Assembly (NCBI GenBank): GCA_028281625.1
Contig: JANQJN010000005.1
Span: 1-54,389 of the forward strand
DNA from: Emcibacteraceae bacterium
GTDB lineage: Bacteria; Pseudomonadota; Alphaproteobacteria; Sphingomonadales; Emcibacteraceae
Reading direction: 5' to 3'
Length of the DNA stretch: 54,389 nucleotides
This document shows, piece by piece, positions 1 to 34,481 of the stretch. The notes under the pieces are model-generated. The model had not been told where the DNA came from. It was given only the letters and a program-made list of their open reading frames with translations, and did no database searches. Made by a program: the position numbers and the translations under genes. The stretch's first letter is position 1. Each line of letters opens with the position of its first letter.

Positions 1-540
1 TGCGATGAACATCGCTTTGTAATCAACCATTTCCATGTGGCTGGTCGATATGGGTAAATTGGAGAATTGGACAATGGTGACAATCAACAACAGGCCAAAT
101 GAAATCACTACGAGTTCAGTTAGCCAGATCGAAATATAGCGCAATAACCCAAGCAGAATACCCACCGATAGGCCATACAAAAGAGCCTGCTCAGTAAAGG
201 ACAAGTCAAACCAACCTGTTTGGTAAAACTGCATCAGGCCGTAGTAAAAGGCGCAGATACCGCTTAAGAACGGTACTGAATATCGCCTGAGATAGAACAA
301 GCTCAGCATACATTCGGTTAGGCCAATTATTGCGACAATCTCGCCATACTGAGCCAATTGCTCATGCACATCCAAAAGACTTAGGGTGGAAAAATAATCA
401 GCGGCAATAGCTGCCAAAAATATCGGCAATAAAACAATTACCGGTAAGGCGTATTTTTGCTTATGCTGGGAAAGTTGCCCACCCATCATCAGTAAAATAG
501 CTATTGCCGCTGATATCAACCAAGCTTCGTGATTAAGCAT
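1..540 (-). CDS. Partial integral membrane protein (C-terminus beyond window start); begins MLNHEAWLISAAIAILLMMGGQLSQHKQ
   Basis: Manual reverse-strand translation gives about 180 uninterrupted codons to the window edge, with several hydrophobic segments. The ATG (538-540) overlaps the stop of the upstream CobN-like gene (ATGCTTAA). Not in the supplied ORF track. Confidence 0.75.
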   Translation of the reverse strand, partial: MLNHEAWLISAAIAILLMMGGQLSQHKQKYALPVIVLLPIFLAAIAADYFSTLSLLDVHEQLAQYGEIVAIIGLTECMLSLFYLRRYSVPFLSGICAFYYGLMQFYQTGWFDLSFTEQALLYGLSVGILLGLLRYISIWLTELVVISFGLLLIVTIVQFSNLPISTSHMEMVDYKAMFIA

Positions 541-3500
541 TTCTTCTTCTCATAACCATAAATGATATAGGGATCAGAATGAGAAAAAGCCAAAGCGGAT
601 TAAAGGAAGAACCTGACGTTGCCTCCGCACTTTGTGGTGCGGTTTGTTCAACTTGCTCCGTATTTTGAGGGGTTTCGGTTTGAGCGCTCGGCTGCACTTC
701 CTGTCTTTTCAGCACCACGCCTTGCCCCTGATTGGAGTCCGACAGTGCCGCTGTCATCTGGGTCTGGTATTCTGTAAGCAAGCTCTGATTTTGTGCAAGC
801 TGATCAACAATGAAACTCTGAAGTGCTTCGTTACCACAAGTGAAGTTTCCACAACCTGCTTCATACTCTGCAACCATTTCCGCATGAATTGTGGCCAACT
901 CCACGAGTTGTTCTTCGGAAGCCTGCCATAATCCCTTGCGGGCAGTCTCAAGCATGACACCAGACATTTCCTGAAGTGCATATGGATTTTCACGTTCAAA
1001 AAACGATTGGAGATCCAGATTCTCGCTGTCGCGAATATAAACGTCGTGAAGCCTGTTCCAAACACTATCATCAATGGCATCTGGCTTCATAACATTCCAG
1101 CCGTACGTATTTCGGAAAGTCTCAGCAAATGTTTCGGCGCTGCTGGCACCACCACTGCTGAGTTCAGAAATATAAGTTGGGTTTAGAAGCGTTGTGCGCA
1201 TCTCTGTCCATACGGCTTCGTTTAGGGTTTGTAGTTTCGCCTGATTTGCGTTTCTAAAATCATTGAAATACGCTTTGGGATCACTTCCTGTCACTTCCCG
1301 CACCGCGAGGTTAAGACCGCCCATAAATTCATAAACATGATCAAGACTCAAAGCGCCCCAGGTGTTGCTGCTTCGTGGCTGAATGACCACTTCCGTGTTT
1401 TGCAGCGCCGCAGCGAACAGGTGTGGTTGATAATCACCCCAACTTCCGCTGTCTCCATATACCGCGCCCATATTTTCAAGATATTGCCGGGCAATTTCCT
1501 GATCCGTTTGCCAGCTATCACCTTGCTCTACATTTTCCATGATCGCTGTGCCGTACGCACCATTTATTCCACCAAAACTGCGACGGTAAGAATCTTCTCT
1601 TGCCTTTTGTGGCGCAACGCCTTTTTCCAACAGGTAAACTTCAGCGTCTCTAACGCCTTTGGCAACAAAGTTCTGTTCGTAGTTGTCTTCCGCTTCTGCG
1701 GCCATCACCACTGCTTCTTCGATTAACGCGAGGCGCGACGCTGCAAGATCCCGAAGTTGTCCGGCCGATTGCAAGACTACATCAATGCGGGGTCTTCCAA
1801 GTTGCTCAAGCGGGATCAAGCGAATGCCCCCCACCCGTCCAAACGGATCACGGACCGGTTCAACACCGAGAAGGTATAAAATTTCTGCGATCGTCGCCCC
1901 CTGTGTATGAATAAACTCACTGGGCCAAAGGGTGAAGCTGATTTTTTCAGGATATTCACCCTGTTCCTGATAATGCTGCTCAAGTAATGTATCAGCCAGT
2001 CTTTTGCCAACATCCCATGCTGCGACGCTCGGGGTTGTTTCAGCGTCAATGGAATACATATTTCGGCCTGTGGGAAGTGCGGATGGGTTACGCACGGGAT
2101 CACCTCCTGTGCTTGGCTCTGTATAACCACCACCAAGTGCATTTAAGATGGCATTAAACTCATAATCGGCCCCGTTTATCAGATAACTCTGATAATCCGT
2201 CACATTTTCCATCGCCTGTTTGAAGAGCTGAACATTTTGCGCAATTTTCGCTTCATGAATGCGACTGTTATTTAGCTCTTCACCAGTTTCTTCAATCGTA
2301 TTGCTTAGAGCAACGTGAAACTCAATCGGTGACATTTGATATTGCGCAGCGATATCTCCGGATAGTTTTGTTTCTAGTTCTGGCTGATCAATAAGTGTCT
2401 TTTTATAACTTTCCAGAAAGTTCAGTCGATGCGTAAGGTGCTGCCAGTCTGTTTCAACCTCCTCGTTTCTGAGGATCACCTGTGGCAGCGCCGTCAACGC
2501 TTGTTGATACTCCGCCTCTAGTCGCGCTTCTTTTTGCGCGGCAACCCGGACGGCCAGATCATCACTTTTCACCCAGCCCAGAACTTTTTCTTTGGTTTCG
2601 GGTGTCTGCATGGCAATCACAACTTGTCGCACGTCATCCTTTTCAAGTTGCGCGAGTGCTTTTCCAATGGGCGGAATGACTTTTGCCAGAAGCTTCGCTT
2701 TTTCGGCGACTTCGGGATCCAGCGCACGTGATACATCCGTAAAGGTTTGATCATTTTCCAATCCAAGCAGAAATTCCTGGGTTTCCCCGTCGCTCATGGC
2801 CTTGGCGGTTAGGTCCATCAATTCTTCTTCAGATAGATCCCGACCCACTATTTCACCGCTTCCGTCGGACGACATCGCAATGAAACCTCTGATCATTTCG
2901 CCTTGATCGATTCCCTGGTTTTCCGCGATCCAAACTTCTGTACGCTCGAGGAGCGATGGATCAACCAGTTCAGCCATTAAGGCATCGCTTTCTGTTCCGG
3001 TAAGTCGCTGATTGATCCAGTTTTGCACCTGTTCGCGTAGTTGTTGATCAACAAGTGCACTTTCCGACTGTTCCTCCGAAATGACCTGATAACTTTGAAA
3101 CATTGCATCCAAAGTCATCAGAAGCGCTGTCTGGTCGGTTTCATCCTCCGAATAGCGGTTTCCAAGTGTATAGAGGCCTTTGGTAATCTTACTTTGGGCA
3201 AGGGTTTCCAGCCACTCGGATACAGGCGAAAGCACTTCTTCCCGCCAATTCTCAAGTTCTGCTTGTAACTGACTTTCGGAAAGCTCCAGATCCTGCGCAA
3301 GTTCCAGTGACACGATCAGTTCGTTAATTTGATCCTTAAGTTCGAGCTGAACAGTCCCCTCCGTAATCGCAAATTCTGCTATGCGATCAGAAAGAACCCT
3401 AAGTTCACTGTAAAGGCCGCTTTCAAGGAAGGGCGGTGTCAGGTGCGACAAAATCGTCGCGTAGCTACGGCGTTTTGCAATGATCGCCTCTCCCACATTA

Positions 3501-5257
3501 CTCATGGTGTAAACGTAGAAATGTGGCAGATCACCGATCAGAACATCTGCCCAATCGTATGAAGAAAGTGCGACTTGTTTTCCTTGTGTGAATTCAAGGC
3601 TGCCATGGGTGCCGTAATGCATAATGGCGTCGGCTTCAAAAACTTCCTTAAGCCACATGTAAGGGGCCATGTAACTGTGGGGTGGCGCTTTTTCAGTGCC
3701 ATGCACAAGTTTAAAGGTATCCTCACCAATACCAGGCAAAGGCTGAGGAAGGAGCGCAACATTACCATACTGAAGACGTGCTACAGCGAGATATGTTTCT
3801 CCGTCCTTTTCAGTTACCATAAAGTTTCCTGGTGCGGGGCCGTACGTATTGTTTACACGTTCACACACCCCGGCGGCGAGGCTGTTCTCGCACCACTCTG
3901 CATATTGCGCGGCCGGAATAAGGGCGGGATTTCCTTCATTATAAAACTGCTCCAATAGTCCTTCAGCATAAGGGGCCATAACGGTTCCCTGAAGGTTTAT
4001 ATCGGCCTTGAACTCTTCAATATCATCTGGTAGCTCACCAAGAAAATATCCATCTTTTTTTAGCGCATGAAGCGTGTTAAAGAGGCTTGGTATAACTTCC
4101 ATATTCCCCGCAACAAGACTATTTTTTCCCGGCCCGCGGAAATAAACGATTGCAAGTTTTTTGCTCAGGTTGTCCTGATCTTTCAGAGCGAACCAGCGTT
4201 CCAGCACATCGGTAAATGTGTTCAGACGGTCCGGGATCGCCTTAAAAATTTCAAGTTGATTATCATCGCTAAATTGGGCATTGATCGCATATGGGAGGGT
4301 TGCACCGTCAATCTCCGGCATGACAATATTCATTGTGAGAAGATTTGACGTGTACCCTTGTGGGTCGTCGAGCCATTTTTCATAATTTTGAAAAACGGAT
4401 ACCGGTGCAAGGAGTGGAATATTCTGCTGTTTTAACCACTGAATGGTGCTGCTGCCACTTCCCAGCTGCAAACGGCCATGTGGCATCATCAGAACAGCAT
4501 CCGGGTCCACTTCCTGAATGAGTTCAAGCCTGCGATCAAAGCTGGCGATTGGATAAACCTGCATTCCCCGACCTTCAAGTTCATTTATAAGGCTATCCAA
4601 ATGATCCCGGTTGGCATTAAATGGGCCGGGAACACTGGTCATTAAGGCGATTTTTTTGCCTTCAGGGCTAAATTGCGGCAGCGTTTTATAATATTCCAGA
4701 TAGTTCGCCACTGTGCTGAACATTTTACTCTCGTCGAAATGGAAGAGCACGTCCATATCGATTTCTTGAGGTTCTTGCGCCGCTTCAACACCAAATGTTT
4801 TTTCGTCCAGTTTAACACGGCTATAGCGGATTAGCTGTGTGTAATTAAATTCGCCGCCATAGCGGAAATAGTCCTGAACACGCGTACGTTCCGACGCGTA
4901 TAGATTTGTCACATCGATTTGTGGATTTGTAGAAGCTTCAACAAGAATTCTTGTGCCGTTTTCGCCTGCTTCATTGAAGGCGGCTACTTGTTCGGGAGTA
5001 AGGGATAACCCTCTACCAAAAATATAGATAACATCATAATCCCCATAAGAATCTGTAGCGTTTTTGTCCAGCTGATCAATAGTGATCCAGTCGCTATCAA
5101 GTGACCCGATAATGCGGGCAGCTTGAAACCCTGCATAGTTCACCAGTGCGACTTTTGTGGTGGAAATCCAGTTGAAATAGCTCCAAACTGCAGTTGATAC
5201 CAATGCTATGGATAGAAACCAGGTTAAAAACTTCTTGTTAAATATGGACCTCAGCAT
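533..5257 (-). CDS. CobN/HmuS-like cobaltochelatase-family protein, membrane anchored and probably periplasmic
   Basis: 1574 aa; CobN core motif MHYGTHGSLEFTQGK; N-terminal hydrophobic signal/anchor (FLTWFLSIALVSTAVWSYF) and C-terminal TM plus basic tail (FNPLWLFLILIPISFMVMRRRNA). Confidence 0.9.
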   Translation of the reverse strand: MLRSIFNKKFLTWFLSIALVSTAVWSYFNWISTTKVALVNYAGFQAARIIGSLDSDWITIDQLDKNATDSYGDYDVIYIFGRGLSLTPEQVAAFNEAGENGTRILVEASTNPQIDVTNLYASERTRVQDYFRYGGEFNYTQLIRYSRVKLDEKTFGVEAAQEPQEIDMDVLFHFDESKMFSTVANYLEYYKTLPQFSPEGKKIALMTSVPGPFNANRDHLDSLINELEGRGMQVYPIASFDRRLELIQEVDPDAVLMMPHGRLQLGSGSSTIQWLKQQNIPLLAPVSVFQNYEKWLDDPQGYTSNLLTMNIVMPEIDGATLPYAINAQFSDDNQLEIFKAIPDRLNTFTDVLERWFALKDQDNLSKKLAIVYFRGPGKNSLVAGNMEVIPSLFNTLHALKKDGYFLGELPDDIEEFKADINLQGTVMAPYAEGLLEQFYNEGNPALIPAAQYAEWCENSLAAGVCERVNNTYGPAPGNFMVTEKDGETYLAVARLQYGNVALLPQPLPGIGEDTFKLVHGTEKAPPHSYMAPYMWLKEVFEADAIMHYGTHGSLEFTQGKQVALSSYDWADVLIGDLPHFYVYTMSNVGEAIIAKRRSYATILSHLTPPFLESGLYSELRVLSDRIAEFAITEGTVQLELKDQINELIVSLELAQDLELSESQLQAELENWREEVLSPVSEWLETLAQSKITKGLYTLGNRYSEDETDQTALLMTLDAMFQSYQVISEEQSESALVDQQLREQVQNWINQRLTGTESDALMAELVDPSLLERTEVWIAENQGIDQGEMIRGFIAMSSDGSGEIVGRDLSEEELMDLTAKAMSDGETQEFLLGLENDQTFTDVSRALDPEVAEKAKLLAKVIPPIGKALAQLEKDDVRQVVIAMQTPETKEKVLGWVKSDDLAVRVAAQKEARLEAEYQQALTALPQVILRNEEVETDWQHLTHRLNFLESYKKTLIDQPELETKLSGDIAAQYQMSPIEFHVALSNTIEETGEELNNSRIHEAKIAQNVQLFKQAMENVTDYQSYLINGADYEFNAILNALGGGYTEPSTGGDPVRNPSALPTGRNMYSIDAETTPSVAAWDVGKRLADTLLEQHYQEQGEYPEKISFTLWPSEFIHTQGATIAEILYLLGVEPVRDPFGRVGGIRLIPLEQLGRPRIDVVLQSAGQLRDLAASRLALIEEAVVMAAEAEDNYEQNFVAKGVRDAEVYLLEKGVAPQKAREDSYRRSFGGINGAYGTAIMENVEQGDSWQTDQEIARQYLENMGAVYGDSGSWGDYQPHLFAAALQNTEVVIQPRSSNTWGALSLDHVYEFMGGLNLAVREVTGSDPKAYFNDFRNANQAKLQTLNEAVWTEMRTTLLNPTYISELSSGGASSAETFAETFRNTYGWNVMKPDAIDDSVWNRLHDVYIRDSENLDLQSFFERENPYALQEMSGVMLETARKGLWQASEEQLVELATIHAEMVAEYEAGCGNFTCGNEALQSFIVDQLAQNQSLLTEYQTQMTAALSDSNQGQGVVLKRQEVQPSAQTETPQNTEQVEQTAPQSAEATSGSSFNPLWLFLILIPISFMVMRRRNA

Positions 5258-5283
5258 CTTATGCCTCTCCCTTATTTGTAATG

Positions 5284-5307
5284 GCGGAGCGAATAAACCC
5301 GCTCCGC
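5284..5307. other. Intercistronic hairpin (GCGGAGCG-aataaacc-CGCTCCGC)
   Basis: Perfect 8-bp inverted repeat between the TonB receptor stop and the CobN-like start. Confidence 0.7.
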
Positions 5308-5324
5308 TTTGATTTCAGTTACCT

Positions 5325-7610
5325 CTAAAAACGCACACCTACGGAAGCGGCAAAGCTTCTGCCAGGTGCTGCCGATGCATCAAGGTTGCCGGCTGCGTTG
5401 CTGCCTTTTGAATGAGCGCCCCAATATTTCTTGTTGGTGAGGTTATAAACAGACGCCATCACATTAAGATTTTCATTGAGCGCCCAGCGGATGGAAACGT
5501 CCTGGACACTATATGCAGGGGGTTCAAACGCCGGTAAGGGTTGACCTTGTTGAGTGAGTGGCTCCGCGTCATCGGCTGTACCAGCACCTCTCAAATGCCA
5601 ATGAAATTGCCATTCTTCAGCGGGGCTTAGGCTGATGCCCAAAACGTAACTATGCGGTGGTACGCTGTTTAGGCCGGTATCTGTAATTTTGTTCTTACCA
5701 TCAATGAAACTGGCTGCCATATTCAGGCTACCGCTCCACCCATCAGGAAGTACGCTGTCAATGAAGATCTTACTGCTGAATTCAATACCTTTAATCCGGA
5801 CTTCTTCGATATTTTGATATTGAATTTGGCGAATGGCCGTCGGACCGACAAAGATTGGTGGTTGATTCCTAAAGCCTATGGTTTGGCTGTCGATGAAATT
5901 GTCATAATTATTGTGGTACGCCGCAATTTCTGCACTTATGACATCATTGCGAAGTCTCAGCCCTACTTCAAAACCGTCACTGGTTTCCGCGGACAGATCA
6001 TTATTTGGAATGACTTCATGAGGAACACCAGGTACCGGTATCAGAATAGAGCGGCTGATATATTGCTCGGCCACTGGTGGTGATCTGAATCCAGTAGCGT
6101 AGTTGGCAAACAGAGAAAGACTATCTGTCGCGTCAAAAACCATTCCGATATGCGGTGAAAACGCTTCATCGGAGTATGTCGCTGGTACAGCATTGGCGAT
6201 ATTGAAGTTTTGATATTGTTGGTCTACCTCAGGTTTGTTCTTAAAGTAGTCATAACGAATACCCGCTGTGATATGCAAATTATCAAGCAGATCATAATAA
6301 TCCTGCAGGAAAATACCCACTTGTGTCACCTTTGCATCCGGGAAAGTCTTTCCTGGATACTGAAAGCCATTGATCACATCAGTGCTGGTTCCAGCGATCA
6401 CATCTGTTTGAAGTCGATCAACCGGCCTTGTAACAGAGCGATGCGTGAAATCGGAACCAATAAGGAAGTTATGATCACCGAACTTTTTCTGCAGGGTAAA
6501 ACTGGCGCCAAATTGCTTTTGCTCAAATTCTTCCCGCTCTTCATCAAGCATTTCTGACGCTGGGATTGGAGGAAAGACCGACCCAGGATTTTCAGTGGTT
6601 TCAAGTTCATATTGTTTGTAATTGGAATATTGGTAGCTTACCTGCCACTGCAGCTTATCGGCAAATGACAAGTCTGCTATTTCATGGGTGAGGGCAAATC
6701 GCATATTTTCCGATTTGTCCTCAGCTTCTGAACTGGTGATAGAGGTACCAGGTGGCCCGGCGATTGGTCCAATATTTGTGTTTAACTGAATATCTGAATC
6801 CTGGCGGAAATAGTCAGCCAGGATGTTAAAGGTTTGATTATCCCCACTCTTTACTTGCCATTTAAATAACACGTTATTGGCGTTGCCGTCCTTTGGATTA
6901 GGGGCAAAATCGCTGTTGATGTCCGTTTCTTCGAATTGTTGGTGCTGTACTTGGATCATGGCATGGCTGCTGCCAATTTCACCAGCGACTGTGCCGCCAA
7001 TCCTGTAGCGGTTGTCTTCACCAAAATAACCTGCGTTGGCTGACAAATAGGGTGCGCCCCCATTTGAATTCACAAGTGTCTCAGGTTCAGCTGACTTGAT
7101 AAGCACAACGCCGCCAAGAGCGTTACTTCCGTAAAGCGCTGAAGCGGGTCCTTTTAAAACTTCGATTTGTTGCAATTGAAATGGATCGAAGTTTCCCCGT
7201 CCCTGTGACGCACCGGCTGAACCAAAACCTTCCGGCATAAGGACGCCATCTTTGACCATCAATACCCGGTTACCACCGATGCCGCGAATAATGATATTGG
7301 CATCACCGTGACGATCCCCGGTTCTGTCAACTGTTATACCTGGCTCGTAACGCAGTAAATCGCTTAATTTATTCGGAGCCAGTTGTTCAATTTCCTGCTT
7401 ATCCAATACCGCGATACTGGCGGGTACCTGGTTTAGTTCGAGTACCATTCTTGGCGCGGTCACCTGAATAACATCAGTTGTATCATCCTGGGCAAACGCT
7501 GCTGAAGATGTAATGATCGATCCCGTTAGAAGGGCAGTTTTCAAACTAAACCTTATCAATCCCTTTTTTGAAATGCCATTATGGGCATAAGTGTTTGTTT
7601 TTTCACACAT
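5325..7610 (-). CDS. TonB-dependent outer-membrane receptor, heme/hemoglobin-receptor-like
   Basis: 761 aa; plug domain (IIIRGIGGNRVLMVKDG, EVLKGPASALYGSNALGGVV); GFRSPP...PHEV..PNNDL resembles the FRAP/His/NPNL signature of heme receptors; ends in an aromatic residue (GVRF). Confidence 0.9.
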   Translation of the reverse strand: MCEKTNTYAHNGISKKGLIRFSLKTALLTGSIITSSAAFAQDDTTDVIQVTAPRMVLELNQVPASIAVLDKQEIEQLAPNKLSDLLRYEPGITVDRTGDRHGDANIIIRGIGGNRVLMVKDGVLMPEGFGSAGASQGRGNFDPFQLQQIEVLKGPASALYGSNALGGVVLIKSAEPETLVNSNGGAPYLSANAGYFGEDNRYRIGGTVAGEIGSSHAMIQVQHQQFEETDINSDFAPNPKDGNANNVLFKWQVKSGDNQTFNILADYFRQDSDIQLNTNIGPIAGPPGTSITSSEAEDKSENMRFALTHEIADLSFADKLQWQVSYQYSNYKQYELETTENPGSVFPPIPASEMLDEEREEFEQKQFGASFTLQKKFGDHNFLIGSDFTHRSVTRPVDRLQTDVIAGTSTDVINGFQYPGKTFPDAKVTQVGIFLQDYYDLLDNLHITAGIRYDYFKNKPEVDQQYQNFNIANAVPATYSDEAFSPHIGMVFDATDSLSLFANYATGFRSPPVAEQYISRSILIPVPGVPHEVIPNNDLSAETSDGFEVGLRLRNDVISAEIAAYHNNYDNFIDSQTIGFRNQPPIFVGPTAIRQIQYQNIEEVRIKGIEFSSKIFIDSVLPDGWSGSLNMAASFIDGKNKITDTGLNSVPPHSYVLGISLSPAEEWQFHWHLRGAGTADDAEPLTQQGQPLPAFEPPAYSVQDVSIRWALNENLNVMASVYNLTNKKYWGAHSKGSNAAGNLDASAAPGRSFAASVGVRF

Positions 7611-7790
7611 AATAAACTCTTTAGTCGTATAAAATTTTGTGTCTATCTCAGAGAGAGACCTGTTAGAAAATAAAGTTCGAGTGTGAGGAACAATTTATCC
7701 AATAAACAATTAACCAAGCATGCCAGCAATTCGAAATTGCTCGGCACCTAATTGCATAGATTGTATTTTGGAAAACTGATAATCTCCCCA

Positions 7791-8171
7791 CTATAAAAGC
7801 AGGGACGGAGGAGCGCGTTTTTGCGAAATACTACCACTAAAACTTCCCAGAGAGAAATTGGTAAATGGCAACTTAGTGGTGAGTAAATGGTCGCTAGCAA
7901 CCAAAGAAAAATATAGGTCACAGAAACCATAGATAGATTTTTCATATGCATGGAACAGCTCACAACTATATTCAGTTTGATGCTCATCCTGATGGTCATG
8001 ACCGTGATCATGGTCGTGATGATGGTGGTGGTGATGGTGACCATCTTCATAATGAATTGTTGCATGGTGAAAAGTCGCAATCTGCATGCAAACACATGCA
8101 GAAAATGCGAGAAGTAATAGTCTCTTTATTATACTTTTGTTTCTGAGCACCAAACCCCCCAGAGAATCCAT
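7791..8171 (-). CDS. Small His-rich secreted/membrane protein, putative zinc chaperone-like
   Basis: 126 aa; hydrophobic N-terminus; HHHHHHHHDHDHGHDH run; C-terminal RAPPSLLL tail typical of small metal-related proteins near zinc/copper uptake loci. Confidence 0.7.
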   Translation of the reverse strand: MDSLGGLVLRNKSIIKRLLLLAFSACVCMQIATFHHATIHYEDGHHHHHHHHDHDHGHDHQDEHQTEYSCELFHAYEKSIYGFCDLYFSLVASDHLLTTKLPFTNFSLGSFSGSISQKRAPPSLLL

Positions 8172-8193
8172 TTATAATTTTGAGGAACTATAA

Positions 8194-8212
8194 AACGTTA
8201 TAGTATAACATT
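8194..8212. promoter_or_regulatory. Putative Zur box
   Basis: AACGTTATAGTATAACATT: perfect 13-bp palindrome GTTATA-G-TATAAC (8197-8209) with further matching flanks; close to the remembered Zur consensus GAAATGTTATANTATAACATTTC; lies about 26 bp upstream of the His-rich ORF start. Confidence 0.75.
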
Positions 8213-27049: not shown

Positions 27050-27958
27050 TTACCGATTACCCAATATCTGTACGGAATCGCTTTGTGCACTCTTGTCCGG
27101 TACGACGTAAACCTTAACCCCATTTAAAATTTCTGACATTTCTTCGAGATATATGCGTCGCTCCATCGTTTCAGGCGACTTCTGCCATTCTTCCGCAAGG
27201 CTGGTAAAACGAACCACCTCGCCCCTTGCTGTTTCAAGCCGGCTAAACTGATCTGCCAGTCCCTCATTTCTAATCCGGGTGGCTTCAGCTTCTGCGTCAA
27301 ACAACATTTGGTTTTTCTGGGTTTCTGCCTGTTCTATTCTTCTGTAGCGATCGGAGTTGGCATTTTGAACCAACTGGAACGCGTCCGCAACACCATCATT
27401 ATTTGGCGGCGAAAGAGACTTAACAATAACATCCTGAACTTGAATTCCGGTATTGGCACCATCCAGTTCATCTTGCATGGCCTGCCGGATGCGGCTTCCA
27501 AGCAGCTGGCGCCCTGTTGTCAGAATATCGTCAACACTTTGTTCCACCAAAGATCTTGTCAACATCTTTTGTGCCACGTAATCAAGGAATACTTCCGGAT
27601 TATCATGAGACGTTTCATAGAGATCCAGCTGCGTTATCGTATATTGAATATCAACCTGGATTTCCACCAGACTGGCACCGCCCGTCATCCATAAGTTTCT
27701 CGCACCAAACGTGAAGCTCTCAAGTGTGGGAGCGGTATCTCCCACCGAAAGAATCAGGTTTGCTTTGGTTGTTCTTACTGTTTGACTGCCAAATGGATAC
27801 GGCGCATTCCAATGAATACCTGCTTCGACATTACGGTCAATCATTTTACCGAATATGTAGGTGACAGCGGTTTCTTCTGGTTCCACCGCATAAAAGCCGG
27901 AGACGGCATAGAGCGGTAGCAGCAATAATCCTAAGCCATATAGAAGTTTCTTAATCAT
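27050..27958 (-). CDS. SPFH/band 7 protein, HflK-like
   Basis: 302 aa; N-terminal TM; FYAVEPEETAVTYIFGKMIDRNVEAGIHWNAPYPFGS; VQDVIVKSLSPP; coiled-coil tail. Confidence 0.85.
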   Translation of the reverse strand: MIKKLLYGLGLLLLPLYAVSGFYAVEPEETAVTYIFGKMIDRNVEAGIHWNAPYPFGSQTVRTTKANLILSVGDTAPTLESFTFGARNLWMTGGASLVEIQVDIQYTITQLDLYETSHDNPEVFLDYVAQKMLTRSLVEQSVDDILTTGRQLLGSRIRQAMQDELDGANTGIQVQDVIVKSLSPPNNDGVADAFQLVQNANSDRYRRIEQAETQKNQMLFDAEAEATRIRNEGLADQFSRLETARGEVVRFTSLAEEWQKSPETMERRIYLEEMSEILNGVKVYVVPDKSAQSDSVQILGNR

Positions 27959-28881
27959 TATCTATCCGCCGATCTGTTTTCAAGAGGTGGATTTGTTAGA
28001 AGATCAAGCAGTGGGGAATCTTCCGGCAGTATCAATGTTGTATCAAGATCAATGATGCTTCCATACACTTCCAAAGTTCGCAAAAATTCGTAAAAATCTT
28101 CTTTATCTTTATAGGCTTCCGCGTAAATGCGTGCTGCTTCTGCTTCTGCTTCACCACGTGCGATCTCCGCTTCAGCTTCGGCTGAAGCAATTATCTCAGC
28201 GCTTTGTCTGCTTGCGTCCGCAAGGATTTTTCTAGCTTCTGCATCCCCTTCTGAGCGGTAAGATTTCGCAATACGCTCACGCTCCGCACGCATACGGGCA
28301 TACACACTGATCAAGTTCTGTGCAGGGAAATTGAATTTTGAAACTCCAATGTTGGTAAATTCAATACCATAATCGCGACTGGCCAGCGTGGAGGCCTCAT
28401 TAAAGATCGATTGTTCCATTGCGGAAATATTTTCAGCTGCCATCATGTCACTGAGCTGACTAATGTCGGCAGGGATATAATCCGTGAATGGTTTTTGCCC
28501 TAGCGCTGCACCAAAAAGGGACTTCACCAGATTTTCTATACGAGCTTCCGCTGCATCTCTGGTTCTAAGTGCCGTCAGGAACTTTTCCGGATCCACAATC
28601 CGCCATGTCAGGAAGGAAGAAACAATGATATTCTTTTTGTCTGACGTTAAAAATTCTTCTTCTGGTATAATCTGATACATATTGCGTTTATCGAAACGGA
28701 CAACCCTTTCAAAGGGCATAGGAAGCTTCATTCTGAGACCGGGCTCATCATGCACTGCAACCGTACGACCGAAACGTGTCACAATACTAAATTCCGCTTC
28801 ATTGACCACGAAAAAGGACGTCATCAAGTAAGAGACTATTAATATTGAAATTACGACAATTGGGGCTTTTTTCTTCATCAT
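27958..28881 (-). CDS. SPFH/band 7 protein, HflC-like (start trimmed to MMKKKAPI)
   Basis: FFVVNEAEFSIVTRFGRTVAVHDEPGLRMKLPMPFERV; AEAEAEIARGEAEAEAARIYAEAYKDKEDFYEFLRTLEVY typical of HflC; SD-like GGGAAGAG. Confidence 0.88.
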   Translation of the reverse strand: MMKKKAPIVVISILIVSYLMTSFFVVNEAEFSIVTRFGRTVAVHDEPGLRMKLPMPFERVVRFDKRNMYQIIPEEEFLTSDKKNIIVSSFLTWRIVDPEKFLTALRTRDAAEARIENLVKSLFGAALGQKPFTDYIPADISQLSDMMAAENISAMEQSIFNEASTLASRDYGIEFTNIGVSKFNFPAQNLISVYARMRAERERIAKSYRSEGDAEARKILADASRQSAEIIASAEAEAEIARGEAEAEAARIYAEAYKDKEDFYEFLRTLEVYGSIIDLDTTLILPEDSPLLDLLTNPPLENRSADR

Positions 28882-28897: not shown

Positions 28898-31039
28898 TTA
28901 ATCCTTAAATTTGAACCTGACGACATCTTCTGCATTCGGGTCGAGCCATAAATCAACTCCGTCCGAATTCTGTAGTCCATTAAGATAAAGTGTTGGCAGG
29001 ATGAGCCATCTTTCCTGAGCCTCTAACTGCAGTCTTTTTTCTGTCAGATATGGATAGCTTTGATGCACGTCTGCAAGTGGTTTAAAGGCTGCTGCCTGCC
29101 CTCTTGCAAATGCTAATTCTCGTGCGGCGCTTACGCTGGCGTTTGCTTTAACGGTTTCAGAATTACCTCGGGCTTCATTAAGCATGGAAATAGCGTCACC
29201 ATCAGCCAAAAACAGTGATCTTTGCATATCCTCGAGCGAGCTAGCTACGTCACGAAATGCGTCATGCACACGGTTCGGGGCGTGGACATATACGAGTCTG
29301 GCATCAAGAACATTAAAACCCTGATCAAGCGCATTTACTTTATTTTTTAATTGATCCCGAAACCGTTGCTCAAGTCCGCCACGCTCCGTGGTAAATACTG
29401 AATCAATAGGAAGCTGCACGGCTTCAGACACAAGAACCTGCCGCGCTAGATCCATCAACAGGTTGTCATTTTTTTCGCTGTAAAAATGGTAATTATAAAT
29501 ATCGTCAATTTCATATGTTATTACCGATTTTATAAGTAGAACATTTTCATCTGCTGTTAGATACGTGTTTGAATTTTCGTATGAATTTACTCTTTCCCCG
29601 CTCACTGTGAAATTACCGAGGCTTTCATCGATTGAAATTTGCCGAACATTGCCGGTGTCAATAACCACCGCTTCAGTAATGGGGGATGGCAGTCTAAAAT
29701 ACAGGCCAGGTGATAATTCACTGTCCACCACTTCACCGAACCTGAGAATCATGCCCTGACTTCCAGGTGGGACCTGCACAGTATAATAGGGGTAAAGCGC
29801 AATAATTACGATCGCGGCCGTCGCGCGCATCAAATTCTTTTGATGCGATTTTAAAAAACCACCAGCAAGAGAAGCTTGCATTTTTAAGTCGTTAACCGGA
29901 TCAATATAACTTTTACGTCCAAAACTGACGATAACCAATCCTACAAAGATAACGGTAGCTGCCCATTTCGCGACCATCCAAAATGTGCTATCGGGGCTAT
30001 TCAAAGCAACGATCGTGTCGGCTCTGACAATATCTGCAGCAAAATAATCAAGCAAAAGACCGGCACTAATAGCAACTACAATAATTGATGATAGATAAGC
30101 CCACATCACTCTGTAACCAAGCATCTTGCCAACAATATTTATAGTCGCGATACTGGTCGCCGGACCTGTTAGAAGATAAACAAGCGCAGCCCCTGGCGAC
30201 AATCCGCTGATAATCAAACCAGCTGCGACAGGTGTAGACATGCTGGCACAAGTGTATAGCGGCACACTAATCAAAACCATCAGAAGCATGGAAAGAATGC
30301 TGGCGAGCAGCCCATCTCCAAAATTAAAAAAGTTATCGGGTACAAGAGCAAGCATTATCCCCGTAATCACCAGCCCTGCCACAATCCAGAAAGCAATGTC
30401 ATCAATCATTGGGCCAAAACCATAATTGAAAACGCCTTTTGCCTTTTGCTTCCAGCCTACGTTTTTGGAGGCCGCCAGTTCTCCTTCATCGTGATGATGG
30501 TGATGGTGCTCATGGTCGTGATCGTGATCGTGATGATGATGGTGGTGGGTTAGCTCTTCCAGTTCTTTTTGGTCTTCTTCTGAAAGCTCGTCATCATCCT
30601 TCTCATCACGTGTCAGAAAAGCACAGGAAAGGCCAGCTGCAATTGCACTTACCAGGGCCGCAAACGGTCTATAGATGGCCATGAAAGGTCCAAGTAGTCC
30701 GTAAGAGACAATTACCGAATCCACACCTGTTTCCGGCACGGATACAATGAAGGAAGCTGTAGCTGGTTTTGAAGCACCTTTTTTGCGCAGTGTTGCTGCT
30801 GCTGGAAGCACGCTGCAAGAACATAATGGTAAGGGGGCACCCAGAATTGTGGCCCAGAAAATTCCCTTAATTCCCTTTTGGCCAAGATTCTTGGTGATCA
30901 GTTTCATGGGAATAAATTCATGCAAAACGCCCGCAAAAAACAGACCAAATAGAATGAATATTGAGCTTTGATAAAATATTCCTACTGTCTCAGTAACAAT
31001 GCTGACAGCAATATCATATAAGGCTAATAAAAACTCCAT
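28898..31039 (-). CDS. Fusion of COG0701/SO_0444-type metal permease (His-rich loop) and SPFH domain
   Basis: 713 aa in one frame: permease (GAPLPLCSCSVLPAAATLRKKGASKPATASFIVSVPETGVDS), loop THHHHHHDHDHDHEHHHHHHD, then a TM and SPFH (YPYYTVQVPPGSQGMILRFGEVVDSELSPGLYFRLPSPI). Confidence 0.9.
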   Translation of the reverse strand: MEFLLALYDIAVSIVTETVGIFYQSSIFILFGLFFAGVLHEFIPMKLITKNLGQKGIKGIFWATILGAPLPLCSCSVLPAAATLRKKGASKPATASFIVSVPETGVDSVIVSYGLLGPFMAIYRPFAALVSAIAAGLSCAFLTRDEKDDDELSEEDQKELEELTHHHHHHDHDHDHEHHHHHHDEGELAASKNVGWKQKAKGVFNYGFGPMIDDIAFWIVAGLVITGIMLALVPDNFFNFGDGLLASILSMLLMVLISVPLYTCASMSTPVAAGLIISGLSPGAALVYLLTGPATSIATINIVGKMLGYRVMWAYLSSIIVVAISAGLLLDYFAADIVRADTIVALNSPDSTFWMVAKWAATVIFVGLVIVSFGRKSYIDPVNDLKMQASLAGGFLKSHQKNLMRATAAIVIIALYPYYTVQVPPGSQGMILRFGEVVDSELSPGLYFRLPSPITEAVVIDTGNVRQISIDESLGNFTVSGERVNSYENSNTYLTADENVLLIKSVITYEIDDIYNYHFYSEKNDNLLMDLARQVLVSEAVQLPIDSVFTTERGGLEQRFRDQLKNKVNALDQGFNVLDARLVYVHAPNRVHDAFRDVASSLEDMQRSLFLADGDAISMLNEARGNSETVKANASVSAARELAFARGQAAAFKPLADVHQSYPYLTEKRLQLEAQERWLILPTLYLNGLQNSDGVDLWLDPNAEDVVRFKFKD

Positions 31040-31380
31040 GGTTCTCCCTCTAAACTAAGCGCTATTAAAGTAAGCGCGTGGCAATACAGCCATCCACTCC
31101 CCCAAAACAAATAAATCTCGGAAAGTGGGATAATAAACAGTTATTTCTAAACAATAAAGTCTTTATGACATAATATTTTGCTTAATCCTGCTTACCAATC
31201 GTTTCTCGAAATTTTTGTGCCTGAATTGCAACGATTAATTTCTTCATTGATATATTATAACGCCTTACATTTTTGTCAATTTATTAGCGCAAGTGGTGGC
31301 TGTCTCGTTTTCAACAGGGACCGATGGAGCATCGCTGACGCAAATAAACTTGCAATCAGTTTAAAAAATGTCCCGGAAAC

Positions 31381-33681
31381 TCACAGCGCCAATGTTATTT
31401 TTTGTCCCTTGACGCGCGAACAACAGGTCATCATTCTATCGCCCTGCTTTCTTTCCTTACTGGTAAGAACCTGATCCCTGTGATCTATATCCCCCTCAAT
31501 CACTTCGATTTCGCAAGTCCCGCAAATACCTTCCTTGCAATCATTGGGTACATCCATTCCTTTTGCAAGTAACGCCTCTAGGACCGTCTGATTCGCACCG
31601 ACTTTGATTGTCAGTTCAGAATCCTGCAAATAAGCATCAAAGCTATGTTCCTCTTCAGCATTAAGCGTTGCAACGTTGGAATTGAAATACTCGTAATGAA
31701 GAGCTCCCTCTGGCCAATTTTCAGCTAAGAACTTGAGTTCATGGAGCAACCGCTCTGGACCACAAGCATAAACCTGCTGGCCTTGGACCAAATCAGCGGT
31801 TAGTTCCGAAAGTTGCATTCTCATGCCGTCTTCGCCTGAATAAAAAGAAAGGCAATCACCATGCTGTTCTTTTAGTCGTTTTGCAAACGTCATGGAACTA
31901 AGGGACCGCCCTGCATAATGAACAGTGTAATCCTTGCCAAGCTCCCTCAATCTATCAGCCATGGCAATGATTGGTGTGATGCCAATACCACCCGCAATTA
32001 GCATGTATTTTTCAGCGGTTTCATCTAGCTTAAAATGATTTTTTGGCCCAACGATCTGAACTTTGTCACCGACAGCAAGTTTTTCATGAAAATGAAGCGA
32101 ACCGCCACGACCTTCCGTTTCTTTTAAAACCGCAATTTTGTATTGGTCGCCGGCTTCTGAAGACCCACAAAGCGAATATTTGCGGCTAAACTCCCCGTGA
32201 ATGAAATCGATATGAGCGCCCGCCGTCCAATTAGGAAGGCTTTTACCATTTAAACTGGCAATTGTAATTTCAATCACATCTTTTGTTTTTGATGAGATCT
32301 CCTCAACCCGTACCGTTCGATAAAGCTCGTCTTTGGACGGTGGCCCAATTTTAAAATGTGTGTGCTCAGTAAGAATTTCAGGGTCGGCCTTTTCAGGGTT
32401 TTTGTCTGGATCCCAAGTGACCCAAAGCTCTGAAGCTCCGCGAAAGGATGTATTGGGCAAGAACTCAAACTTTTGATCAGTTTTAAGTTCCATATGAGGG
32501 AGTCTCTTTACAAACTCTTCGAGGAAGATCCTCATTTCCATACGACCTATGTTCTTGCCCATACATTGGTGACTGCCGTAACCAAAGGTAAGATGATCCG
32601 TTGTATTGTCGCGGTAAAGATCAATTTCATCAGGGTTTTCAAAATGCCGTTCGTCATGATTGGCCGATGCCGTTACCATCAGAAGCCGAGCATCCTTGGG
32701 GACTTTTACATCACCAATCTGTGTGTCACGTGTTGCCTGCCGCCTCCAGGCAACAACTGATCCTTCAAAGCGCAAACATTCTTCAACAGCATTGGGTATG
32801 AGCTTCGGGTTTTCACATATTTCCTTCCATTTCTCCTTATTACCGAGAAGAACACGAAACATATTACTGGTTGCGTTGGAAGTGGTTTCATGAGCCGCAG
32901 CGAGGATCGCCATCATCATTGAGTTCAAGTAAGACTCTGTCACGATCTCCGGATACTTTAGGTGCTGGCGTACCGTAAGATACATCCACCCTTCACCCTC
33001 AGGATTTTCTTTCATCTTCTTTATGATATCGACAGCAACCGTCCAAAACTTGCCCACCGAATGAGCAACATCAATTTGTTCTTCCGGTGTTGGCCTTCCC
33101 CAGGTATTTACCGTGTGCGCAACCGAAAAACTTCTGATTTTCTCACTATCCTCATCGGGTACACCTAAAAAATGAAGCGCCACCATTAAGGGTATTTCCT
33201 TAAACATTTCAGCGACGAGATCCGCTTCGCCCTTTTCAATGAAGCGGTCCATATATTCACGGGTAAGAGCACGCACGGCAGGCTGATGTTTTTCAAGTTC
33301 TTCAGGATCAAAGCTGTCCATTAAAACGCGGCGCCGCTCCATATGGGCTGGTTCATCCTCATTTACCAATGTGCGGTTCATCGCGTAACCATAACTTTTG
33401 AGGACCTCCATCGCTTCGGGTGGTGCCGGTGTTATTTTTTCGAGCGCAATGCAGGGAGAAAATAAGATATTGTCACGAAAAATTGCTTTTACGTCATCGT
33501 ATCTGCTGACAATCCAATATCCTAAACGAGGACTATAAAATACTGGCTCCTGTTCCCTGGCCCATTTCAGCGCCTCTGCGGGGTTGACATGATAGTCGCC
33601 TTCGAACGCATCAAATTTTCGTGCACCATGGGAAATGGGACATCCGGTTGGTGTTAGCTTTTGATGATCTTGATTACTCAT
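31381..33681 (-). CDS. Self-sufficient cytochrome P450 (P450 + FMN/NADH reductase + 2Fe-2S ferredoxin), CYP116B-like
   Basis: Heme motif FGYGSHQCMG, AAHETTSN I-helix, reductase domain GGIGITPI, C-terminal CKEGICGTCEIEVIEG...C ferredoxin. ATGA overlap with the IclR gene. Confidence 0.92.
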   Translation of the reverse strand: MSNQDHQKLTPTGCPISHGARKFDAFEGDYHVNPAEALKWAREQEPVFYSPRLGYWIVSRYDDVKAIFRDNILFSPCIALEKITPAPPEAMEVLKSYGYAMNRTLVNEDEPAHMERRRVLMDSFDPEELEKHQPAVRALTREYMDRFIEKGEADLVAEMFKEIPLMVALHFLGVPDEDSEKIRSFSVAHTVNTWGRPTPEEQIDVAHSVGKFWTVAVDIIKKMKENPEGEGWMYLTVRQHLKYPEIVTESYLNSMMMAILAAAHETTSNATSNMFRVLLGNKEKWKEICENPKLIPNAVEECLRFEGSVVAWRRQATRDTQIGDVKVPKDARLLMVTASANHDERHFENPDEIDLYRDNTTDHLTFGYGSHQCMGKNIGRMEMRIFLEEFVKRLPHMELKTDQKFEFLPNTSFRGASELWVTWDPDKNPEKADPEILTEHTHFKIGPPSKDELYRTVRVEEISSKTKDVIEITIASLNGKSLPNWTAGAHIDFIHGEFSRKYSLCGSSEAGDQYKIAVLKETEGRGGSLHFHEKLAVGDKVQIVGPKNHFKLDETAEKYMLIAGGIGITPIIAMADRLRELGKDYTVHYAGRSLSSMTFAKRLKEQHGDCLSFYSGEDGMRMQLSELTADLVQGQQVYACGPERLLHELKFLAENWPEGALHYEYFNSNVATLNAEEEHSFDAYLQDSELTIKVGANQTVLEALLAKGMDVPNDCKEGICGTCEIEVIEGDIDHRDQVLTSKERKQGDRMMTCCSRVKGQKITLAL

Positions 33682-34481
33682 ATAGCGTCCCAAGAACCCA
33701 ATTTTTCGTTCAAGCGTTGCTGCGATTCTAATAAGGCTTGCTTTATTTTCTGCGCCGCCCTGCTGTCCTCTTCCCCTATATCATGTTCATAACCAATGAC
33801 AGTTAAGACGAATTCTGCCTCTCCGCGAACTCCCACCACAGGAACGGAAAGGGAAATGACATTTGGCTGAAAATCACCCATTCCGATTGAAAGGCCAGTT
33901 CGTTTTATCTCTGCCAGCTCATCCTTAAATTCGGCTTTGTCAAGTTCGAGGCCACCTATTTTTGGCTTTACGGGCAATGCACCATAAGATGAAAGCAACG
34001 CGTCTTTCTTTGCATCGTCAATCAATGCTGCGAACATCCTGCCGGTTGCACTATATATTGGGGAGAGCACTTCACCTATTCTAACCATCAGTGTGATTGG
34101 TCGTGAAGAGGCTTTTCGACCAACCACAAGTGCGGCGTCATCATTCCAGATCGACAAAAACACTGTCTCGTCAACTTTCGCATTTAGAATATCCAGTTCT
34201 TCATTGGCAAGGCTCACTCTATCAATACGCTTAATAGCCTTAAAGCCAATATCAAGGGCCTTTGGCCCTAAATCATATAAACCCGGCTCCTTTAAACGCG
34301 TAACCAAGCCCGTTTCAATTAGACTTACCAGATAACGATGAACTTTCGCTGGGGACATATCAATTTGCTGTGAAAGGGCATTTAGTGATATTGGCCCACC
34401 CGCATCAACGATAGCATCCAGAACCGTCATGCCAATAACGACAGAATTGATACCTTGCTGTATTTTCCTTGGTTCAGACAT
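33678..34481 (-). CDS. IclR-family transcriptional regulator
   Basis: 267 aa; N-terminal wHTH (PISLNALSQQIDMSPAKVHRYLVSLIETGLV) and IclR ligand domain. Confidence 0.9.
   Translation of the reverse strand: MSEPRKIQQGINSVVIGMTVLDAIVDAGGPISLNALSQQIDMSPAKVHRYLVSLIETGLVTRLKEPGLYDLGPKALDIGFKAIKRIDRVSLANEELDILNAKVDETVFLSIWNDDAALVVGRKASSRPITLMVRIGEVLSPIYSATGRMFAALIDDAKKDALLSSYGALPVKPKIGGLELDKAEFKDELAEIKRTGLSIGMGDFQPNVISLSVPVVGVRGEAEFVLTVIGYEHDIGEEDSRAAQKIKQALLESQQRLNEKLGSWDAI

Follow-up and report, generated by a model that had tools for sequence, protein, structure and literature searches.

A metal permease fused to an SPFH domain at the head of a three-gene SPFH operon, and unrelated metal transporters fused in the same position

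SPFH rings occur across life, and the function of most of them is unsettled; the proteins themselves are widely described as scaffolds. The locus analyzed here lies in a stretch of 54,389 nucleotides from an Emcibacteraceae bacterium (hereafter the window, meaning the whole stretch), and it can be set beside several described systems. With the HflK/HflC-FtsH assembly of E. coli (7vhp, 7wi3, 9cz2) it shares an SPFH part that is alike from the membrane helix to the long helix, as well as an HflC-like partner, but the window has three SPFH genes rather than two, carries a transporter fused at the N-terminus, encodes a fusion protein that scores below the HflK equivalog cut-off, and shows no ftsH partner. 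The complex of aquaporin-1 with stomatin (9zd2, as described by its entry title) is a case in which an SPFH assembly holds a membrane transport protein, as is proposed here, although that complex is non-covalent, human and built with a water channel, whereas the window encodes a covalent fusion with a metal transporter. With the SO_0444 family, whose SO_0444 mutants fail in zinc/copper excess (PMC3219624), the permease of the window has in common the CSC motif and a score above the family cut-off, and it differs in length and in being fused to an SPFH domain.

The best lead, which the preliminary description of this DNA had missed, is an unfused relative, the PA2439-PA2435 (hmtA) locus of the zinc-starvation response of Pseudomonas aeruginosa. 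Like the window, this locus has three consecutive HflK/HflC-type SPFH genes (PA2439-PA2438-PA2437) and an adjoining metal transporter gene, hmtA (PA2435). In P. aeruginosa, however, the transporter is a P-type ATPase encoded by a separate gene, whereas in the window it is an SO_0444 permease, it is fused, and no P-type ATPase lies downstream. Expression of PA2437-PA2439 and hmtA rises 5.6- to 14-fold in a P. aeruginosa znuA mutant (PMC4542158), the trio and hmtA proteins increase in zinc depletion (PMC11761036), the promoter of PA2439 is bound by Zur (PMC8531726), and the trio, a part of the Zur regulon, is among the genes that react to N-acetylcysteine (PMC9431628); in one study, hmtA mRNA did not fall upon zinc addition (PMC8531726). 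HmtA has been reported as an importer (reviewed in PMC10393844). The PA2437-2439 trio has also been named as FtsH modulators, and its genes correspond to PA14_33110, 33080 and 33070 (PMC9431628), which are called PaFlo5-7 in PMC13086221. According to that paper, deletions of SPFH genes in P. aeruginosa PA14, including PaFlo5-7, caused no strong phenotype under conditions apparently without metal variation; the paper does not mention HmtA.

The preliminary description, made from the sequence alone, had reported one uninterrupted 713-aa frame in which a permease with a CSCS motif and a His/Asp loop is joined to a membrane-anchored SPFH domain, and this was confirmed (Table 1). The frame lies on the minus strand, the preliminary description having given no strand, begins with an ATG preceded by a purine-rich stretch, has zero internal stops, and contains, both above the respective Pfam cut-offs, ArsP_1 at residues 18-331 (135 bits) and Band_7 at residues 422-599 (53 bits, cut-off 23.6). 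The assignment of the permease to a copper/zinc-linked family was likewise upheld: the match to the NCBIfam model of SO_0444 Cu/Zn efflux permeases, NF033936, spans residues 20-370 with 378.5 bits against a curated cut-off of 300, and the family has been linked to zinc/copper tolerance (PMC3219624). The SPFH part reaches 114.2 bits against the NCBIfam HflK equivalog TIGR01933, under the cut-off of 159.4. The CSCS motif is situated in the first half of the permease, and CSC is retained in all seven fusions checked. The His-rich loop did not hold up as a constant feature, as residues 131-230 include 15 histidines in the window protein versus none and one, respectively, in the fusions of genomes G721 and G885; since the loop varies in this way among fusions, it cannot be the key element and was dropped as such.

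Table 1. Features of the fusion locus, with positions in the window
Feature	Position	Strand	Basis
Fusion gene, 713 aa: SO_0444/ArsP_1-type permease and HflK-like SPFH domain	28898..31039	minus	Pfam, NCBIfam
Permease part, residues about 1-373; CSCS motif at residues 73-76	29921..31039	minus	ArsP_1, NF033936
His/Asp-rich loop, residues about 165-184	30488..30547	minus	read directly in the sequence
Linker, residues 374-402, basic, predicted cytoplasmic	29834..29920	minus	positive-inside count, 23 first-gene proteins
Membrane helix, SPFH domain and long helix, residues 403-713, predicted periplasmic	28901..29833	minus	Band_7, 7vhp match, fold search
Second gene, HflC-like SPFH, about 307 aa from ATG at 28881	27958..28881	minus	TIGR01932
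Third gene, HflK-like SPFH, 302 aa	27050..27958	minus	Band_7; TIGR01933 below cut-off
GTTATAATATATC, one mismatch from a Zur-type palindrome, 222 bp upstream of the fusion start	31249..31261	minus	suggestive

A frame of this kind could be a chance product, arising from read-through, an assembly error or a neutral fusion without functional coupling. Such an origin would fit the occurrence of the fusion in only four of the 14 genomes of the genus sampled (it was not seen in the other ten), and also the fact that, in a 399-genome sample of the phylum, a frame long enough for a fusion exists only for the window's own permease. However, the same architecture, 82% identical to the window fusion, is present in three other species of the genus (genomes G001, G002 and G013), one of which, G013, is represented by a single 3.37-Mb contig, so the fusion is not an assembly error; the missed stop or frameshift that the preliminary description had considered is not there. 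Across the four fusion genomes, dN is 0.06-0.27, whereas dS is saturated or >1.5 in each segment, the linker included, which indicates purifying selection on the whole fusion frame. In addition, distant homologues with the same architecture were found, so that the lack of homologues named in the preliminary description as a refutation does not apply, and three transporter superfamilies share the same slot, as described below. The fusion of the window is a real gene, and we consider an artefactual origin hardly credible.

Two further SPFH genes had been noted downstream of the fusion, and both are present, the first HflC-like and the second HflK-like. The HflC-like gene scores 182 bits against the NCBIfam model TIGR01932 (cut-off 134); in the list of open reading frames its start, at 28980, overlaps the fusion, and the actual start is probably 28881, 16 bases past the fusion stop. 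The HflK-like gene, the ATG of which overlaps the stop of the preceding gene by one base, scores 144.2 bits against TIGR01933, under the cut-off of 159.4 (NCBIfam). The fusion, the HflC-like gene and the HflK-like gene are a three-gene operon (hereafter, a trio), with the gene spacing expected of an operon. In trees built from SPFH domains, the second genes of the trios all fall in one branch distinct from canonical HflC, with support of 98/96 in the tree with 12 rows and 91/84 in that with 21 rows. The first and third genes formed a common group outside canonical HflK in the smaller of the two trees (97/99), a grouping that the larger tree did not recover. By its second gene, the trio is a single family. 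A single origin of the permease fusion is neither demonstrated nor rejected by a p-AU of 0.136, a value from a run in which three fused sequences were entered twice, once labelled as unfused, and of which only the topology test itself, which left these sequences free, was used.

The kinship of the partners with HflK and HflC, together with the naming of the P. aeruginosa trio as FtsH modulators, raises the question of whether the trio regulates the FtsH protease in response to metal, its transporter part either sensing metal or merely anchoring the ring. We regard this as very improbable: no ftsH was recognised in the gene neighbourhoods read, the window genome has a separate canonical HflK besides the trio, both the fusion and the third gene fall under the HflK cut-off, and the catalytic motifs of the fused ATPases discussed below are intact, which argues for live transporters. 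The locus is also a caution for annotation: a gene labelled HflK, HflC or FtsH modulator may have no connection with FtsH.

A scan of named genomes yielded full-length relatives of the permease fusion in a Gammaproteobacteria MAG (L024, 827 aa) and in a Thermoanaerobaculia MAG of the phylum Acidobacteriota (L025, where a run of N breaks the His-rich region). In both, an HflC-like and then an HflK-like gene follow downstream; the operon order of the window is thus conserved. In the phylum of the window, the permease was detected at E 1e-40 or better in 40 of 399 genomes, and only that of the window lies in a frame of fusion length: the 42 other SO_0444 matches (E <= 1e-40) have open frames of 349-531 aa, compared to 718 aa in the window. 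In the Acidobacteriota sample, the permease is found at 1e-60 in 24 of 247 genomes, in four of which (G721, G768, G947 and G885) it is fused to an SPFH domain. Those unfused permeases whose flanks were read have no SPFH neighbour, except for one on the opposite strand, and a search of viral contigs produced no matches. Several other long permease frames were rejected as SPFH fusions upon inspection, their contents being different: the frame in L079 has an extra C-terminal segment that resembles, by eye, an HMA domain, those in L068/L075 are probably the result of spurious upstream extension, and the one at L077:417-2369 consists of a ZIP-like membrane domain (its ZIP match lies under the Pfam cut-off) located N-terminal to an ArsP_1 permease, with no SPFH domain. 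As a separate observation, the permease::SPFH trios at L024:10864-12669 and L104:3875-5588 are followed by genes for a Peripla_BP_6 binding protein and a small protein of 158-173 aa, the latter probably a membrane protein; these are possibly extra parts of the system.

The 247 genomes of the phylum Acidobacteriota were searched with a second-gene profile (A2). This gave 23 matches at 1e-76 in 21 genomes and, when read, every one of them proved to belong to a trio; two genomes, G708 and G759, encode two different trios each. The first gene is a permease::SPFH fusion in six of the 23 trios, a P1B-ATPase::SPFH fusion in 13, a CDF::SPFH fusion in three, and a fusion of SPFH with a membrane domain of no known family in one, where a separate P-type ATPase is encoded downstream. 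The CPC and DKTG motifs are intact in all 13 ATPase fusions, most of which come from close relatives, so that the number of independent cases is below 13 (L098 and L102/L103 stand clearly apart), and the ATPase fusion of L091 scores 538 bits against TIGR01525, with a cut-off of 346. Outside this sample, the first gene of a trio on a plasmid of Aquibium oceanicum encodes a CDF transporter (PF01545, 89 bits) fused to SPFH, with a gene for a heavy-metal P-type ATPase further downstream; the HxxxD/HxxxD metal site is kept in this plasmid protein and in the two Acidobacteriota CDF fusions checked. Conserved proteins without a Pfam match accompany the ATPase-type loci L091-L101, namely a 251-aa membrane protein with a GIDH motif upstream of most of these trios and a protein of about 159 aa downstream of many.

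The occupation of one slot by three unrelated metal-transporter superfamilies is the strongest piece of evidence, and it points to metal transport as the shared purpose of these proteins. The preliminary description had suggested that the transporter is built into an SPFH ring or cage; a built-in metal transporter is strongly favoured by the recurrence of P1B ATPases and CDF transporters in the same fusion slot, whereas the ring or cage is predicted from homology. Control searches with A2 gave best scores of 308 bits in the phylum of the window (apart from the window's own gene, at 443) and 292 bits in 300 Bacillota genomes. As CDF-type trios score in the same range, 24 such control loci were opened; all 24 turned out to be plain hflK-hflC pairs, and these matches were rejected as further trios.

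Relatives in which the ATPase is not fused are present on plasmids of Burkholderia, Paraburkholderia, Rhizobium and Klebsiella (L111-L114), where gene four, after the trio, encodes a separate P-type ATPase; this gene order matches that reported for P. aeruginosa PA2439-PA2435. In these loci, as well as at L054:3814-4670, a membrane domain of about 230-330 aa that belongs to no known family precedes the SPFH domain. The second genes of the plasmid relatives fall in the branch of the window trio (91/84, in a tree of 21 second genes with P. aeruginosa sequences not among the rows).

Structural comparisons place the SPFH part of the fusion close to HflK. The sequence matches E. coli HflK (7vhp) at 1.3e-45 through the membrane helix, the SPFH domain and the long helix, and an AlphaFold2 model of this part, built with six sequences (pLDDT 69), has HflK (7vhq_E) as its best solved fold match in Foldseek (8.4e-17); assemblies of prohibitin, stomatin and erlin come next. 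An AlphaFold2 model of the whole fusion, for which two sequences were used, had a pLDDT of 34 and was discarded. Within the 23 first-gene proteins, 114 basic residues are found before the SPFH membrane helix and 58 after it, that is, they are twice as frequent before the helix, and therefore the linker is predicted to be cytoplasmic and the SPFH domain to be periplasmic, as in HflK. The membrane domains of P1B ATPases and CDF transporters end in the cytosol, and a cytoplasmic linker fits that topology.

We propose that the products of the trio would form one membrane complex, in which the fusion, through its SPFH domain, and the two partners, one HflC-like and one HflK-like, together build a ring or dome of the HflK/C type at the periplasmic face of the inner membrane, while several copies of the permease sit in the membrane at the foot of the dome. 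The permease would move Zn(II), perhaps also Cu, over the inner membrane, most likely out of the cytosol, and the metal would be released beside the dome or beneath it instead of into the periplasm at large. Such an arrangement would serve controlled metal handling, that is, homeostasis or delivery to periplasmic proteins. The assembly and the topology are suggested by homology, and we infer the substrate, the direction, the enclosure and the purpose; taken as a whole, we would give the explanation an even chance of being right. Zinc-importer genes beside some trios and the zinc control of the unfused relative count in favour of this proposal as well; the lack of a metal gene next to the window fusion, its unenriched and unconserved Zur-like site (see below) and the absence of a strong phenotype in the PaFlo5-7 deletions count against it. 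In its most general form, which we put forward tentatively and with less than even confidence, the trio might be a general bacterial device whose three-component SPFH dome bears at its base, by covalent attachment, any one of several unrelated, interchangeable metal transporters, through which metal would pass into a protein-walled periplasmic pocket.

A chamber may also be irrelevant. In keeping with the usual description of SPFH proteins, the trio could simply gather numerous copies of the transporter into a patch of membrane and stabilise them there; the aquaporin-1/stomatin complex, which appears in the list of fold matches, provides a precedent. However, the presence of three SPFH genes in a fixed order across phyla suggests a defined hetero-oligomer, although one that is compatible with scaffolding too, and we consider plain clustering improbable.

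The direction of transport is where the available evidence divides. The SO_0444, CDF and most P1B families are exporters, and the export indicated by these transporter families sits uneasily with the literature on the unfused relatives, which speaks for a role in metal shortage. The same anatomy could serve the opposite purpose or work in the opposite direction, with the transporters importing or re-supplying zinc or copper and the SPFH dome concentrating scarce metal near the membrane. This fits the induction of PA2437-PA2439 and hmtA in the znuA mutant and in zinc depletion, the binding of Zur at the PA2439 promoter and the reported import by HmtA, all cited above. It also fits gene neighbourhoods, in that zinc-type ABC transporter genes follow the trios of L074 and L088/L025, with ABC-3 zinc-importer permeases in L074 and L088 and with ZnuA (L025) and MerC-like genes at the L088/L025 trio, and a Zur-like site is found upstream of the window fusion. 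That site, however, is not conserved, as none was found upstream of the fusion orthologues or of other trios, nor is the pattern enriched in the window genome, with 17 Zur-like sites compared to 26 for a control pattern; a Zur box as a shared regulator found no support beyond the near-match upstream of the fusion, which is kept as suggestive. The exporter nature of the transporter families, the failure of SO_0444 mutants in metal excess and the study in which hmtA mRNA did not respond to added zinc further weigh against a shortage role, which we judge to be unlikely and nonetheless to be taken seriously. Our preference, at no more than even confidence, stays with export to a site beside or beneath the dome. 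As for copper, a PCuAC copper chaperone gene lies directly upstream of the fusion in G013, and a PCuAC gene and a metal ABC permease gene are found near the Paraburkholderia trio; no metal gene was seen directly beside the window fusion.

Searches of the open-licence literature found no papers describing transporter::SPFH fusions, in agreement with the earlier statement that no mechanism has been described for such a protein. The parts were known before; what appears to be new is that they are covalently combined, that this has recurred with three superfamilies of transporters, and that trios with and without the fusion can be linked to zinc. The joining of the same ring subunit to three unrelated transporter superfamilies speaks strongly for at least one SPFH family whose role is to work with metal transporters. 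The PaFlo5-7 trio of P. aeruginosa, the deletion of which had little effect in standard assays (PMC13086221), gains a testable function, zinc/copper handling together with HmtA. Covalent tethering, in turn, could bring a complex of transporter and SPFH protein within reach of structural studies.

Other parts of the window and of its genome also deserve mention. Positions 533-8209 contain a likely Zur-controlled operon, with a perfect palindrome, GTTATAGTATAAC, at 8197-8209, located 25 bp upstream of a His-rich 126-aa open reading frame (7791-8171), which is followed by genes for a TonB-dependent receptor (5325-7610) and a 1574-aa CobN-like protein (533-5257); this operon resembles PA1922-PA1923 of the P. 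aeruginosa zinc response. Elsewhere in the same genome (L125, L126), a Fur-family gene is followed by ZnuC- and ZnuB-like genes, and there is a second ZnuC/ZnuB-like pair. Finally, at positions 31381-33693 of the window, a single 770-aa frame combines a cytochrome P450, a reductase-like domain and a 2Fe-2S ferredoxin domain, apparently encoding a self-sufficient P450.
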